NCBI GenBank assembly: GCA_029227155.1
Contig: JAQXZJ010000055.1
Coordinates: forward strand, 1 to 34,453
DNA length: 34,453 bases
Direction of reading: 5' to 3'
DNA from: Erysipelotrichaceae bacterium
GTDB taxonomy: Bacteria; Bacillota_I; Bacilli_A; Erysipelotrichales; Erysipelotrichaceae
The notes beneath the pieces were generated by a model, which made no database searches, had not been told where the DNA came from, and was given only the letters and a program-made list of their open reading frames with translations. This document shows positions 18,506 through 30,196 of this stretch, in pieces. Positions within the stretch are counted from its first letter, which is position 1, and every line of letters starts with the position of its first letter. A program made the translations under genes and the position numbers.

Positions 18506-20245
18506 TTAAGCAACTTTTACATATGCTTGAACAAATTTAATTTCAGAACCATCTACAGAACGAATCGTGTAATCTTTAATTTGTTCTGGAATAATGAATG
18601 TTTCAGCATAGTGAACTTCGTATGGTTCAAATGCATTCGTAGGACTTTCTACGATTGCTGCTCTACCATCAACTAAGTTACAAACGTTAACACTTTCTTT
18701 TGTGTGTAATGTTACTTGAGATTTTGTTGTAAAACGACGTGTTTCAATGAATTCTAATTCATGTAAACCTGTATGTTCTTCTAACATTGTTTCATCTTGT
18801 TGAATCACTTTGAAATCATTTACTAAATGTTCTTTTACCCATTCTGTTGTACGATCGAAACGAATGTTGTGTTTACCATGTTCCAAGTGAATTGGACGAG
18901 GTAAACCATCCATTCCTAAACGATCCCAGTCCCACAATTTGAAAGTAAAGATATAAGGTGTAGCACTGATTTCAAGTACCATACATCCAGGTGCTGAACA
19001 GTGTACTGTACCTGCAGGAATTAAGAAATGATCATGTTTCTTAGCAGGGAAACGATTGACAAATTTTTCAGCAGGGAAAGAAACACCCTTTTGACCATCA
19101 GCCAATGCTTGAATCATTTCTTCTGGATTAACTCCTTCTTTGATTCCTAGATATACACTTGCGTCTTCTTTCGCATCCAAAATGTAGTAACTTTCATCTT
19201 GTGTATATGGCATACCACATAATTGTTGAATATAATCACGGTTTGGATGAACTTGTAATGACAAGCTTTGTCCTTCCATGGTATCCAAGAAGTCGAAACG
19301 AATTGGGAATTCTGCGCCAAAACGAGCAAATACTTTTTCTCCTAATAATTTCTTAGCTTCATAGAAAACAACATCGATAGAAGGAATTTCGATAATTTCA
19401 CCAGCTACATCTAATAATAAACTGTTTTCTTCAGGAACTCCATCAAAGCTCCATGCATAGTTTTCTTTATCAGCATCTAAGCCACAAACTTCTTTCATCC
19501 ATTGTCCACCCCAGACACCTGGATCAAAGTATGGAGTCGTACGGAATGGGCCTTCTACTGTATGATGTAATGCTGTTCTAAATGCATCACCAGTAATCAT
19601 CTTTGGATGATCTTTTTGATTCGTATCTAATAAGAAATCGATGGAATCAAATAAACCACGTTTGTGTTTATCTGCAATTCTCCATTCAATAAAGAATGCA
19701 CGTTTATATTTGCGTAAGGTATCTTCTTTATAGTTATCACATTTGTAGTTACCCATTTCTTGGCTACGATAACGTTGTTGAATTTCCCAACGAGCTAAAT
19801 CAGCATAAACTAATACATCACCTGCATGAACTAATTGAGCCGCAAAACCATAGATCAATACTGTTCCATTTGCTTTTTCTACTGCTTCTTTTGCACTAGC
19901 AACTTTTTCAGCATCCATGAAATCTTGTACTTTTCCATAGTACATAATTCCGAATACTCTGTCATCTGTTAGATGGCTTTGCATTCTACGTGTTAATTCA
20001 TCTTTTTCATAGAATAAATCAATGGTTTCAATTACTAAGCTTGGTTGTAACGCTTCTTTTAATACAGGAAGAATTTCTTCATCACGTACACCAGGATAAG
20101 TATCTACAACAACGATTTTCCCTTGGTAAGCACGTAATTGATTAGCAATCGCTTCATAACCTACCCATACATCATTTGTTGTAACATTTGGTACTTTTAC
20201 AGTTGGTTGTTTTACATAGTTTGCTGTTCCTTGTAAATATTTCAT
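18506..20245 (-). CDS. manA: Class I mannose-6-phosphate isomerase with an extra N-terminal kinase-like domain
   Basis: A 579-residue protein, far longer than the 310-390 residues of ordinary ManA. Residues from about 225 to the end are a zinc-dependent type I phosphomannose isomerase (mannose-6-P to fructose-6-P). The segment VWGGQWMKEV lies near 244-253, the metal-site LSLQVHP at 328-334 (Gln331, His333), Glu351 in DESYYIL and His415 in IPAGTVHC. Residues 1 to about 215 form a separate domain resembling uridine-kinase/P-loop proteins in outline (strand KIVVVD at 43-48; VLIYGFAAQLV...ADLARWEIQQRYR near 129-160). The P-loop position reads TYPGVRDEE and lacks GxGKT. The ATG at 20245 is chosen for its AAAGGAAAC site. 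The GntR regulator upstream probably controls it. Confidence 0.85.
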   Translation of the reverse strand: MKYLQGTANYVKQPTVKVPNVTTNDVWVGYEAIANQLRAYQGKIVVVDTYPGVRDEEILPVLKEALQPSLVIETIDLFYEKDELTRRMQSHLTDDRVFGIMYYGKVQDFMDAEKVASAKEAVEKANGTVLIYGFAAQLVHAGDVLVYADLARWEIQQRYRSQEMGNYKCDNYKEDTLRKYKRAFFIEWRIADKHKRGLFDSIDFLLDTNQKDHPKMITGDAFRTALHHTVEGPFRTTPYFDPGVWGGQWMKEVCGLDADKENYAWSFDGVPEENSLLLDVAGEIIEIPSIDVVFYEAKKLLGEKVFARFGAEFPIRFDFLDTMEGQSLSLQVHPNRDYIQQLCGMPYTQDESYYILDAKEDASVYLGIKEGVNPEEMIQALADGQKGVSFPAEKFVNRFPAKKHDHFLIPAGTVHCSAPGCMVLEISATPYIFTFKLWDWDRLGMDGLPRPIHLEHGKHNIRFDRTTEWVKEHLVNDFKVIQQDETMLEEHTGLHELEFIETRRFTTKSQVTLHTKESVNVCNLVDGRAAIVESPTNAFEPYEVHYAETFIIPEQIKDYTIRSVDGSEIKFVQAYVKVA

Positions 20246-20344
20246 CTTGTTTCCTTTCCTATGGTTCATAAATTTCTTTTGTTGTTGATGCAAATAATAT
20301 CCAGATTACTTGAATCATTGCCAGAGAATGTTTCATCCATGCAG

Positions 20345-23635: not shown

Positions 23636-25012
<1,377 letters not shown>

Positions 25013-25783: not shown

Positions 25784-28183
25784 TTATTCAAATTCAATTG
25801 GTTCCAAATGCCAGATATCATCACAATAGTTTTGAATAGTACGATCGGTAGAGAAGAAACCTGCTTTACCAATGTTGTATAAACAGCTTCTTAACCATTC
25901 TTCACGATTTCTATACTTCGCTTCAATTCTTTGTTGTGCTGTTACATAAGCATCAAAATCAGCCAATAACATATATTCATCATTACGATACAATAATTCA
26001 TCATAAATGATTTTAAATGTCAATGGATCTTCATGCCAAGTACCATCAATTAAAGAGTTTAGAACATCTTGAATCCGGCAATCACAAGTGTAATAAGTCC
26101 AAGCATTATAGCCTTCTTTTCTTAATGCTTGAATATCTTCTACTCGTAATCCAAAGATCACATCGTTTTCTTCACCAACCAAACCATGAATTTCAACATT
26201 TGCTCCATCGTAAGTACCAAGTGTAATTGCACCATTTAACATAAACTTCATGTTACCAGTACCACTTGCTTCTTTACCAGCTGTAGAAATTTGTTCGGAA
26301 ACATCAGCCGCATTCATCAAGATTTCTGCAACACTTACACTGTAGTTAGGAATAAATACTACCTTCATGAAACGATTCACTTGAGGGTCATTATTCACTT
26401 TCGCAGCCACTGCATGAATCAATTGAATGACAGATTTAGCAAATACATAAGCTGGAGCTGCTTTTGCTGCAAAGAAGAATGTTCTTGGATGCATCGTAAA
26501 GTCTGGATTAGATTTGATTTGTTGATACAAGTAAATAATATGCATCACATTCAATAATTGACGTTTATATGCATGTAACCGTTTCGCTTGCACATCAAAA
26601 ATTGAGTTGGTATCCACATCAATATCTAACGTTTTCTTAATATAAGCAGCTAAGATTTCTTTTCTTTGTTTCTTCACTTGGAAGAACTTTTCTTGTAATT
26701 CACGATCATCCACATGGGCAATCAACCGTTCTAAATCTTCTGGATGATTGATGTATGAATCTCCAATTGTTTCATTTAACAATTCACGTAATTGTGGATT
26801 AGAATATACCAACCAACGACGGTGTGTAACACCGTTGGTCTTATTGTTGAATTTTTCAGGGAAAATCTGATAGAAATCCTTCATAACATCATTTTTCAAG
26901 ATTTCTGTATGTAATGCTGCTACTCCATTTACAGAATATGCTGCAACAATCCCTAAATTAGCCATGTGAACTTGTCCTTCACGCAAAATCGCTACCCGAT
27001 TTGCCAAGTTAGAATCATGATATTTCTCATTTACTTCCCGAACAAAACGCGCATTGATTTCTTCAATCAACATATAAATTCTTGGCAATAATTTCTGTAC
27101 ATTTGCAATAGGCCAACGTTCCAATGCTTCTTGCATAACAGTGTGATTCGTATAAGCTACTGTATGAGTTACAATGTACCAAGCATCTTCCCATGAATAA
27201 TCATATTCATCTAATAGAATTCTCATCATTTCTGGAATCACTAGAATTGGATGGGTATCATTCATTTGAATACATACTTTTTCATGGAAGTTATCTAAGC
27301 TAGGATAAACACGTAAATGTGATTTTATAATTGCTTGAATTCCTGCAGATACAAAGAAGTATTCTTGTTTTAAACGTAAGAATTTTCCATGTTCCGTAGA
27401 ATCATCTGGATAAACGTTCTGACAAATTTCATTCACTTCTTGAATATATTGTTTAAAATCCTTTTCATCAATGTCTTCTGCCGCTTCTGCACTCCATAAA
27501 CGCAAAGAATTGGTTACCTTTGTACCATGTCCAACAATTGGCATATCGTAAGGCACTGCTCTTACAGTTTCTGCATCCACATGACGAACTTGCATATGTC
27601 CGTCTGCTCGACGAGACATTTCAATACGTCCCCAGAATTTTACATCAACCGCATGTTTTGGTTTCCGAATTTCCCATGGATTTCCGTATTTTAACCACAA
27701 ATCAGGAACTTCTACTTGACGACCATTTACAATTTTTTGTTTAAATAGTCCATATTGGTAACGAATACAGTTTCCACCACCTGGAAGTCCTAAAGAAGAT
27801 AATGAATCTAAGAAACAAGCAGCTAAACGACCTAAACCACCATTCCCTAAACCAGCATCACTTTCCATTTCTTCTAATTCATTTAGGTCAATATTCATAT
27901 CTTGAAGTCCTTCCTTCACGATATCATAGATTCCTAAATTCATTAGATTATTCGTTAAAAGACGCCCAATCAAAAATTCCATTGAAAAATAGAACATCTG
28001 ACGGTTTTGATGCTTCGCAACCATTTCTTTTGTATGTTTCCAATTCACACTCGCATAGTCACGAATCATCTCTCCTAACACAAGGAAACGCTCTGTCGCA
28101 TGAGACGCTTCCACCGAACGACCATAAGTTTCGACCATTCGTTGTGTATAGTCAGTAATAAATTCTTCTTTATTAGTAAACAT
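25784..28183 (-). CDS. glgP: Glycogen phosphorylase
   Basis: A 799-residue GT35 alpha-glucan phosphorylase that releases glucose-1-phosphate from glycogen ends. The pyridoxal-phosphate lysine is Lys646 in SGTGNMKFMLNGA, followed by the TLGTYDGANVE signature. The glucan and phosphate-site segments (LGNGGLGRLAACFLDS near 112, CIQMNDTHP near 304, NGVTHRRWL near 450) are present. The length is typical. An AGGGG site precedes the start, 15 nt after the glgB stop, so glgB and glgP are co-transcribed: branching and breakdown are made together, apart from glgCDA. Confidence 0.96.
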   Translation of the reverse strand: MFTNKEEFITDYTQRMVETYGRSVEASHATERFLVLGEMIRDYASVNWKHTKEMVAKHQNRQMFYFSMEFLIGRLLTNNLMNLGIYDIVKEGLQDMNIDLNELEEMESDAGLGNGGLGRLAACFLDSLSSLGLPGGGNCIRYQYGLFKQKIVNGRQVEVPDLWLKYGNPWEIRKPKHAVDVKFWGRIEMSRRADGHMQVRHVDAETVRAVPYDMPIVGHGTKVTNSLRLWSAEAAEDIDEKDFKQYIQEVNEICQNVYPDDSTEHGKFLRLKQEYFFVSAGIQAIIKSHLRVYPSLDNFHEKVCIQMNDTHPILVIPEMMRILLDEYDYSWEDAWYIVTHTVAYTNHTVMQEALERWPIANVQKLLPRIYMLIEEINARFVREVNEKYHDSNLANRVAILREGQVHMANLGIVAAYSVNGVAALHTEILKNDVMKDFYQIFPEKFNNKTNGVTHRRWLVYSNPQLRELLNETIGDSYINHPEDLERLIAHVDDRELQEKFFQVKKQRKEILAAYIKKTLDIDVDTNSIFDVQAKRLHAYKRQLLNVMHIIYLYQQIKSNPDFTMHPRTFFFAAKAAPAYVFAKSVIQLIHAVAAKVNNDPQVNRFMKVVFIPNYSVSVAEILMNAADVSEQISTAGKEASGTGNMKFMLNGAITLGTYDGANVEIHGLVGEENDVIFGLRVEDIQALRKEGYNAWTYYTCDCRIQDVLNSLIDGTWHEDPLTFKIIYDELLYRNDEYMLLADFDAYVTAQQRIEAKYRNREEWLRSCLYNIGKAGFFSTDRTIQNYCDDIWHLEPIEFE

Positions 28184-28198
28184 AAATTCCCCTTTCAG

Positions 28199-30124
28199 TT
28201 ACTTATTAGCTTTCGCCTCTTTTTTCGTTGATTTCGTCGTTTTCTTCACAACTTTCTTCTCAACCTTTTCACTATCTACTTTTTTCTTCGTAGTTTTTCT
28301 TGTCTTTTTCTTCTTACATTCAAAGATAATACCAGCAAATGGAGCCAACCGTAAAACTAAACTATTCTCAAATTGTTTAAATTGCTGTTTAACGCTCTTG
28401 ATTGGTTTAAAGTTACACATATTGCAACCATTATAGATATCTTTCTCTGTATTGTACATTTCCACATATTCTCCTGCATATGGAACCCCAATCGTAAATG
28501 TTTCATATGAAGCAGGTGTCATATTCAAGACAACTACAAAGCATCCATTTTCATCTTCCCGATAATATGAATATACGCTCTGATTTCCATTATCAGCATC
28601 AATCCATTGGAAACCGCGATAGTCATAATCATATTTGTAGAATGCACTGTTATATTGATAGATCTTCATCAAATCAACAACAGAACGTTCAAATGCACCA
28701 TGAGCTGGATATTTTAATAAGAACCAGTCAAGTTCCTTCTGCTCATCAAATTCCCTAAAATGACCAAATTCATTTCCCATAAAATTCAATTTCTTACCAG
28801 GATGGGTCATCATATATGTAAACAAATTTTTGCATTGAGCAAACTTTTGTTCGTAACTACCCCACATTTTATTGATGATACTAAGTTTACCATGTACCAC
28901 TTCATCGTGAGATAATGGCAATAAGAATCTTTCAGAATAGAAATATGCCATTGAGAAGGTTAAATCATTGTGATGGTATTTCCGATAGATCGGATCACGT
29001 TTGTAATATTTTAACGTGTCATTCATCCATCCCAAGTCCCATTTATAGTCGAAACCGAGTCCCATGTCAAGAGTAGAATGCGTAACTTTTGGATAATCGC
29101 TCGAATCTTCAGCAATTAACATCACAAATGGATACTTTTTCGACAAATTATAGTTCATTCTACGAACGAAATCTAAAGCACCTTGGTTTTCTCCACGGTT
29201 CTTATTTCCTTGCCAGTAAATAATATTACTGATTGCGTCCATCCGTAATCCATCAACATGATAACGATCTACCCAGAAAGAAGCACAAGACATTAAGAAA
29301 CTTCGTGTTGTTTCTTTCCATAAGTCAAAATTATAACTTCCCCATTCACTATGAGCATCGGCATCATTTGGATATTCATATACATGAGAACCATCAAAGT
29401 TTACTAATCCATAAGCATCACTAGCAAAATGAACAGGTACAAAATCCATAATGACCCCAATTCCTGCATTATGACAAGCATCCACAAAATGTTGGAAATC
29501 ATAAACTGTTCCATATCGTGATGTTAAACTATAAAAACCAAAAATCTGATAACCCCAAGAACCATCAAATGGATGTGCACTTAAAGGCATCATCTCTATA
29601 TGAGTAAAACCATGTTCCTTTACATAAGGAATCAATTCTTCTTCTAACTTCTGATAGGTATACCAGTTTCCTAATACATCCCGTTTCCATCCTCCAGCAT
29701 GAACTTCATAAATACTAACAGGACGATCATAGTTTTTGGTTCTTTGTTCAGTCCATTCTTTATCCGTCCATTGATAATTTGCGGTATTTACGATAATACT
29801 TCCCCATTTAGGGCGCAATTCACTGTATGTTGCATAAGGGTCTGCTTTTTCTACCCAACCATTCCCTGTTTCTATGCGATATTTATATACTTGGAATTCT
29901 TTTGCTTCTGGAATTAATGTTGACCATACACCACGATAGTCTACTTTTTCCATCCAACCACAATTTCCATTCCATCCATTGAAGTCACCTGCAACCTGAA
30001 CATTTTTAGCATTCGGAGCATAAACCGTAAAACGAACCCCTGTTTCTTCTAGATGTGCTCCAAATAATTGATACGCATCTATACAATGTCCTGAAAAAAA
30101 AGAGTTGATTAGATCATAATTCAT
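28199..30124 (-). CDS. glgB: 1,4-alpha-glucan branching enzyme with a lysine-rich C-terminal tail
   Basis: A 641-residue GH13 branching enzyme that makes alpha-1,6 branch points in glycogen. A CBM48 N-terminal domain (about 15-115, GVRFTVYAPNAKNVQVAGDF) precedes the catalytic barrel. Catalytic residues by reading: nucleophile Asp296 (GLRMDAI), acid Glu339 (LIAEDSS) and Asp407 (LSHDEVVHG). After the usual end of the family, near residue 602, comes a 39-residue tail with about 18 lysines, plus Thr and Val, like a histone H1 tail. The ATG at 30124 is used because an ATG at 30139 overlaps the GGAGG site. A weak promoter (TTGAAG near 30190 and TATATT near 30165, spacer 19) may precede it. Confidence 0.95.
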   Translation of the reverse strand: MNYDLINSFFSGHCIDAYQLFGAHLEETGVRFTVYAPNAKNVQVAGDFNGWNGNCGWMEKVDYRGVWSTLIPEAKEFQVYKYRIETGNGWVEKADPYATYSELRPKWGSIIVNTANYQWTDKEWTEQRTKNYDRPVSIYEVHAGGWKRDVLGNWYTYQKLEEELIPYVKEHGFTHIEMMPLSAHPFDGSWGYQIFGFYSLTSRYGTVYDFQHFVDACHNAGIGVIMDFVPVHFASDAYGLVNFDGSHVYEYPNDADAHSEWGSYNFDLWKETTRSFLMSCASFWVDRYHVDGLRMDAISNIIYWQGNKNRGENQGALDFVRRMNYNLSKKYPFVMLIAEDSSDYPKVTHSTLDMGLGFDYKWDLGWMNDTLKYYKRDPIYRKYHHNDLTFSMAYFYSERFLLPLSHDEVVHGKLSIINKMWGSYEQKFAQCKNLFTYMMTHPGKKLNFMGNEFGHFREFDEQKELDWFLLKYPAHGAFERSVVDLMKIYQYNSAFYKYDYDYRGFQWIDADNGNQSVYSYYREDENGCFVVVLNMTPASYETFTIGVPYAGEYVEMYNTEKDIYNGCNMCNFKPIKSVKQQFKQFENSLVLRLAPFAGIIFECKKKKTRKTTKKKVDSEKVEKKVVKKTTKSTKKEAKANK

Positions 30125-30196
30125 ATAGCTAACCTCCATTATTTAGTTATTATTAGTGTAATATATTTTGCATAAAATTTCCACCTTCAAGATAAT

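Follow-up and report, generated by a model that had tools for sequence, protein, structure and literature searches.

A lysine-rich tail of histone H1-like composition on the glycogen branching enzyme GlgB of Erysipelotrichales: occurrence, variation and a tentative role as a nucleic-acid tether

The histone-like C termini of PhaM and PhaF are reported to hold PHA granules on the nucleoid, with the N-terminal part of each protein residing on the storage particle (PMC13052382, PMC3556143), and AlgP of Pseudomonas aeruginosa has an H1-like C terminus of 154 residues, made of KPAA repeats, which is tied to the positioning of polyphosphate granules (PMC9239181). Lysine-rich, H1-like extensions of variable length on otherwise conserved proteins are described for actinobacterial TopA and HupB (PMC7398561, PMC5676037), both of which already act on DNA. 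A branching-enzyme homologue drawn to nucleic-acid work is the plastid protein MKIP1, in which enzymatic activity has been lost and a 150-residue insertion binds MatK (PMC13172542). For glycogen itself, condensates in E. coli are reported to collect in DNA-free space, to displace the nucleoid and to make division asymmetric (PMC12706056, 2025). In general, low-complexity stretches rich in lysine are associated with DNA-binding proteins, Ser/Thr-rich ones with polysaccharide enzymes.

The window, which is the whole stretch of 34,453 nucleotides that was analysed, derives from an Erysipelotrichaceae genome of a gut bacterium. Its minus strand holds a glycogen operon including glgB, followed after 15 bases by glgP. 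The relevant features are:

28199 to 30139, minus strand: glgB, an open reading frame with a product of 646 amino acids, above the cut-offs of NF008967 and TIGR01515 and with CBM48, alpha-amylase and alpha-amylase C domains
28322 to 30139, minus strand: folded branching-enzyme core, residues 1 to 606, from domains, invariant residues and structure model
28202 to 28321, minus strand: lysine-rich H1-like tail, residues 607 to 646, with 18 Lys and 1 Arg and a net charge of +14, from the translation
28202 to 28300, minus strand: residues 614 to 646, predicted to be disordered (pLDDT below 50)
28184 to 28198, minus strand: gap of 15 bases between glgB and glgP, containing AGGGG, from the sequence
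25784 to 28183, minus strand: glgP, the next gene of the operon, without a lysine tail, from the sequence

Two other genes of the window were also recorded. Between pullulanase and the glgP/glgB block, a gene (23636 to 25012, minus strand) specifies a protein of 458 amino acids that begins like a lipoprotein and carries repeats of the collagen triple helix (Pfam Collagen, E 1e-16); the gene contains an internal duplication of 225 bases with an 88% match. At 18506 to 20293 (minus strand), a protein of 595 amino acids is encoded that weakly resembles type I phosphomannose isomerase (PF20511, under the cut-off) and is apparently a divergent or longer form of that enzyme.

GlgB scored 758 bits with NF008967 (cut-off 577) and 666 bits with TIGR01515 (cut-off 464), and the domains detected were PF02922 (CBM48), PF00128 (GH13 alpha-amylase) and PF02806 (alpha-amylase C). 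D301, E344 and D412, which from the GH13 motifs we take to be the catalytic residues, are invariant across 42 aligned GlgBs. In a structure model based on this alignment, the core reached a mean pLDDT of 88.4. The last folded strand of the model comprises residues 603 to 609, and residues 614 to 646 are below a pLDDT of 50. On this evidence as a whole, the tail hangs off a complete enzyme. It comprises the 40 residues after APFAGIIF, among them 18 Lys, one Arg, four Glu and one Asp, and its charge is opposite in sign to that of the core (-19). The stop codon occupies 28199 to 28201. An abnormal, H1-like tail behind a normal branching-enzyme end had been proposed in a first-pass annotation; this description holds with respect to composition, the last 39 residues do contain all 18 lysines, and the coordinates given (28199 to 28320) were accurate to within about two bases. 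By sequence, the protein is thus a regular branching enzyme extended at its C terminus by a strongly cationic tail of H1-like composition that is predicted to be disordered.

The resemblance to histone H1 is one of make-up. The tails are lysine-rich C termini of H1-like composition, as in the granule tethers PhaM, PhaF and AlgP, though low in proline, and that of the window is predicted to be disordered. Kinship in sequence to histone-H1-like families was not detected for the tails searched, four against Pfam and one against PDB sequences. No histone-like family was above the cut-off in Pfam; the HC2 match of one tail had an E value of 0.66 and 10.5 bits, compared to a cut-off of 40. PDB sequences yielded weak matches only, the best one to histone H2B with an E value of 0.18.

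Within the sampled part of its genome the tail is exceptional. Together with 20 further stretches the window makes up a sample of 264,116 bases, or about 16% of the genome, in which 118,676 stop-free windows of 40 codons were counted in six frames. Only one of these has at least 18 lysines and eleven have at least 14, every one of them overlapping the GlgB tail. With the tail as query, a search of the whole genome found the tail itself only, a weak result in that the first pass scored a single candidate. A proteome-wide habit was rejected for the samples taken: at least 30% Lys in the last 30 residues was found in one of 249 non-overlapping open reading frames of at least 80 amino acids in the 264-kb sample, which is GlgB, in one of 200 in genome G083 and in two of 180 in genome G074, the glgB loci of the last two having been deliberately included. 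Of the two lysine-rich ends in G074, one belongs to GlgB and the other is unremarkable. Among relatives, 2 of 891 neighbours of glgB had such an end, one being a broken piece of glgB (L145), versus 9 of 77 GlgBs; with at least 35% Lys, the numbers were 0 of 891 and 4 of 77.

Three other simple origins were considered and rejected. Read-through of a stop codon, which the first-pass annotation had linked to absence of the tail from all close relatives, does not apply. The tail is placed between core and stop codon in the window and in the sister loci L003 and L004, and the gap between glgB and glgP is 15 bases in the window and 16 in both sisters. Because this gap is of the same short size, the greater length of the window's tail is accounted for within the coding region. 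AT-driven composition as the sole cause was rejected since tail length is independent of GC3 (rho 0.08, p 0.25); the lysine share does fall with rising GC3 (rho -0.61), yet among 37 tails the half with the higher GC still has a share of about 0.33. A counterweight to a more acidic core was rejected as well (rho 0.08, n=197), with mean core charges of -20.7 in tailed and -20.2 in tailless GlgBs.

To define the distribution, GlgB ends were taken from 230 loci, representing 198 distinct proteins, and an end was called a tail if it was 12 or more residues long, had a Lys plus Arg content of 30% or above, and contained more basic than acidic residues. Absent from the set of 198 are L145 (broken frame), L085 (masked bases) and L059, whose GlgB end is acidic and nine residues long. 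In the search of 117 genomes for GlgB, seven were without a match and 110 had one; nine of the latter were left unread, namely G001, G016 and G029 with a weak, distant match only, G053, G065, G105 and G110 with the gene in pieces, and G078 and G108. Counts by genome cover 130 genomes, 60 of the window's family, 38 of the sister family and 32 of other orders of the class.

Lys/Arg tails of at least 12 residues were found in 22 of the 60, 16 of the 38 and 2 of the 32 genomes, respectively. For Erysipelotrichales as a whole, this amounts to 38 of 98 versus 2 of 32 elsewhere in the class (Fisher p 3e-4), and it is to this comparison, the order against the other orders of its class, that specificity refers. 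Tails of at least 20 residues occur in 12 genomes of the window's family, 14 of the sister family and one of the other orders. In the two Erysipelotrichales families, the main GlgB ends 4 to 119 residues long. A canonical GH13_9 GlgB shares its entire core, its catalytic residues and its operon with that of the window but differs in its end; in the 32 genomes of the other orders, GlgB stops a median of four residues past the last strand. A Geobacillus enzyme reportedly has an extension at its C terminus. Among cultured relatives, Holdemania filiformis DSM 12042 (L169) has a tail of 49 residues, and the GlgB of Faecalitalea cylindroides ATCC 27803 (L161) is without a lysine-rich one. Both readable sister species of the window's genus have a tail of 23 residues with a net charge of +7, at a core identity of 78%. 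The ends thus revealed tails that are present in the sisters and recur in the order rather than being absent from close relatives, and the statement of the first-pass annotation that GlgB does not characteristically carry them fails for Erysipelotrichales.

Paralogues and partner enzymes were devoid of such tails. Eight second copies of GlgB, with 44 to 50% identity to the window's core, all lack a tail and end two to six residues past the last strand; in six of the same genomes the main GlgB does carry a tail, 16 to 119 residues long, and in the other two it carries none. Among 193 readable C termini of GlgA, GlgC, GlgD, GlgP, pullulanase and phosphoglucomutase in the relatives' loci, none reached nine lysines within its last 30 residues. 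Judged from these ends, the tail belongs with the main branching enzyme and not with the pathway.

The same set of ends brings up a serious rival to a tethering function, a tail for stability or expression: a basic C terminus would slow degradation and raise the protein level, and Erysipelotrichales would have exaggerated an ordinary, short basic GlgB end. Lys or Arg is present within the last four residues of 180 of the 198 GlgBs, tailless ones included, and is the final residue in 117; short ends such as EFKK and KYKK (also ELKRK) are common. Since basic ends are this general, the long tails may be outgrowths of them. C-terminal lysine is reported to be enriched throughout bacteria and to raise expression, probably via degradation (PMC7246954). 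However, that study measured the effect at the final two codons and found the natural preference for lysine to have faded by position -20, so that 40 to 119 residues are not required for it; threonine, abundant in the tails, was avoided at the last position. None of the other glycogen enzymes examined has such a tail. Taken together, stability as the explanation is unlikely.

Comparison of the tails among each other revealed fast change within a constant make-up. Forty tails consist of 34% Lys, 14% Ala and 14% Thr. Strong depletion is seen for F, W, Y, H, M, L, I, G, N and D; for the aromatic residues, the aliphatic ones except Val, and Gly, Asn and Asp it is three-fold or more. The longest tails (L049, L039, L052, L055) appear to have two parts, a Glu/Lys-rich stretch, which could form a single charged helix, followed by a K/A/T-rich stretch. 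On our reading of their sequences, L049, L052 and L055 resemble a spacer plus a hook. On a tree of the 198 cores, calculated by a quick method and without bootstrap, tail presence needs at least 28 changes compared to 49 to 69 in 100 shuffles, and presence of tails of at least 20 residues needs at least 21 compared to 31 to 38. Tails are thus inherited, yet often gained or lost, the count being blind to the direction. Core dN/dS was 0.02 to 0.11, whereas tail pN/pS was mostly 0.2 to 0.8 and above 1 in two pairs, values that come from overlapping pairs and short tails. Transitions at lysine codons in 15 pairs sharing no sequence were silent in 31 cases, led to Glu in nine and to Arg in four, while equal rates predict one third each (p 5e-7); this retention of lysine is inflated because paired amino-acid alignment with BLOSUM62 favours columns of two lysines. 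Across these alignments, tail length and residue order change fast, and the K/A/T-rich, aromatic-poor make-up persists.

Such variation would also be expected from tolerated drift of low complexity, in which a disordered gene end lengthens and shortens through slippage of repeats and has little function or none. The rapid change of length, the many gains and losses and the divergence of tails far above that of cores fit this explanation. Against it, composition is maintained across GC3 values of 0.17 to 0.72, silent changes at lysine codons exceed expectation, tail states are clustered on the tree, and no comparable open reading frame was found elsewhere in the genome sample. As both AAA (10) and AAG (8) are used in the window tail, it is not the product of one slipping codon. 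Drift as the whole explanation is considered distinctly unlikely.

A disordered tail with a net charge of +14 could also act as a bristle for solubility or spacing. Through its disorder and charge repulsion, a bristle would keep GlgB mobile at or outside the dense phase of glycogen and would need no specific partner. Glycogen condensates do exclude proteins in vitro (PMC12706056). A bristle may just as well be acidic, yet basic ends are far commoner, clearly acidic ones of at least 20 residues being confined to L233, L234 and L080 (in L234, for example, 10 of 27 residues are acidic). In addition, the charge of the tail opposes that of the core instead of adding to it. A bristle is decidedly improbable.

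Polycations in general bind polyphosphate and anionic membrane lipid, and PPK1 is present in 58 of the 117 genomes searched. In the genome of the window, which is 98% complete, neither PPK1 nor PPK2 had a match, and PPK1 had none in three congeners; this genome may make no polyphosphate by the known kinases. Over a set of 99 genomes, tails and PPK1 showed no association (Fisher p 0.15 and 0.82; median p 0.69 with independent pairs). These results weaken the earlier suggestion of polyphosphate as partner, which is unlikely here, and leave nucleic acid as the most abundant polyanion. For the membrane, no hydrophobic anchor is visible in the tail. Binding to polyphosphate or membrane lipid is, overall, the least probable of the explanations. 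A switch by lysine acylation, read by a nearby sirtuin, had been suggested too. A sirtuin gene is indeed located in the window, 12.5 kb from glgB, with a Pfam SIR2 match, and according to a review the basic tail of HupB in mycobacteria is modulated by acetylation (PMC7398561). Sirtuins act generally, however, and an NpdA match at E 1e-15 was found in none of 80 relatives' loci, which says little because these loci span at most 10 kb per side. Such a switch is very improbable.

The reading preferred here is tethering. The tail would bind to a polyanion irrespective of sequence; nucleic acid is the likeliest one, either nucleoid DNA or RNA and polysomes. The core would hold growing glycogen via CBM48 and other glucan sites. 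Because the core binds glycogen, a single GlgB with its tail on the polyanion could bridge glycogen and nucleic acid. Bridging would leave the enzyme and the young particles of glycogen spread over the nucleoid and prevent them from coalescing in DNA-free space, and the role that PhaM and PhaF have for PHA and AlgP for polyphosphate would here be built into the synthetic enzyme itself. Among the partners suggested in the first-pass annotation, nucleic acid remains the best candidate. The rarity of such ends in the genome sample, their recurrence in the order, their confinement to the main GlgB and their persistent composition speak for this reading. From the chemistry of the tail and the known cases, tethering to a polyanion in general is plausible, if somewhat short of probable. 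The specific proposal, that GlgB has repeatedly been made the counterpart of PhaM, PhaF and AlgP in Erysipelotrichales, with glycogen spread over the chromosome and shared at division, is tentative and rather unlikely as a whole.

Several further findings bear on tethering. The sole HU protein found in the genome has no extended basic tail by which it might contribute to such a role. Against a tether count the 60 of 98 Erysipelotrichales genomes without a 12-residue tail, which evidently live well, the acidic tails mentioned above, and the tail of L058, which is of mixed charge and corresponds to the Glu/Lys-rich first part only. Likewise, 62 of 209 aligned lysine positions in the tails are altered, and proline (3.5%) and motifs of the PAKK/KPAA type are scarce. 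The shortness of the sister tails, the frequent gain or loss, the divergence beyond that of the core and the lack of a Pfam histone-like match above the cut-off weigh in the same direction.

Like PhaM and PhaF, GlgB combines a part acting on a carbon-storage particle with a basic, H1-like C terminus, but these are granule proteins, not the enzyme building the polymer, and no sequence kinship is claimed. DNA binding has been demonstrated for PhaM and PhaF, whereas for the GlgB tail we infer it. The GlgB tails differ from AlgP in being K/A/T-rich with little proline and, in this genome, in the lack of a detectable polyphosphate kinase. Unlike TopA and HupB, GlgB acts on glycogen, and unlike MKIP1, it keeps its catalytic residues. 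No description of a lysine-rich or histone-like tail on GlgB or another branching enzyme was recognised in the accessible portion of the open-licence literature; the first 300,000 characters of a large review on alpha-glucan enzymes do not contain the term 'C-terminal tail', and the passages on lysine examined there are unrelated. The kind of tail is already known, and its placement on GlgB appears to be new.

The placement of glycogen in bacteria is little explored; in a 2025 review on organelle positioning, the word glycogen is absent (PMC13052382). The natural series of GlgB ends from 4 to 119 residues within one clade provides a ready test of whether cells control where their glycogen lies, and the tail could be used as a simple module to relocate glycogen in a laboratory strain. 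If the tether is true, tail length would set how strongly glycogen follows DNA, and the arrangement of glycogen in these bacteria would be the opposite of the polar, nucleoid-excluded condensates of E. coli.
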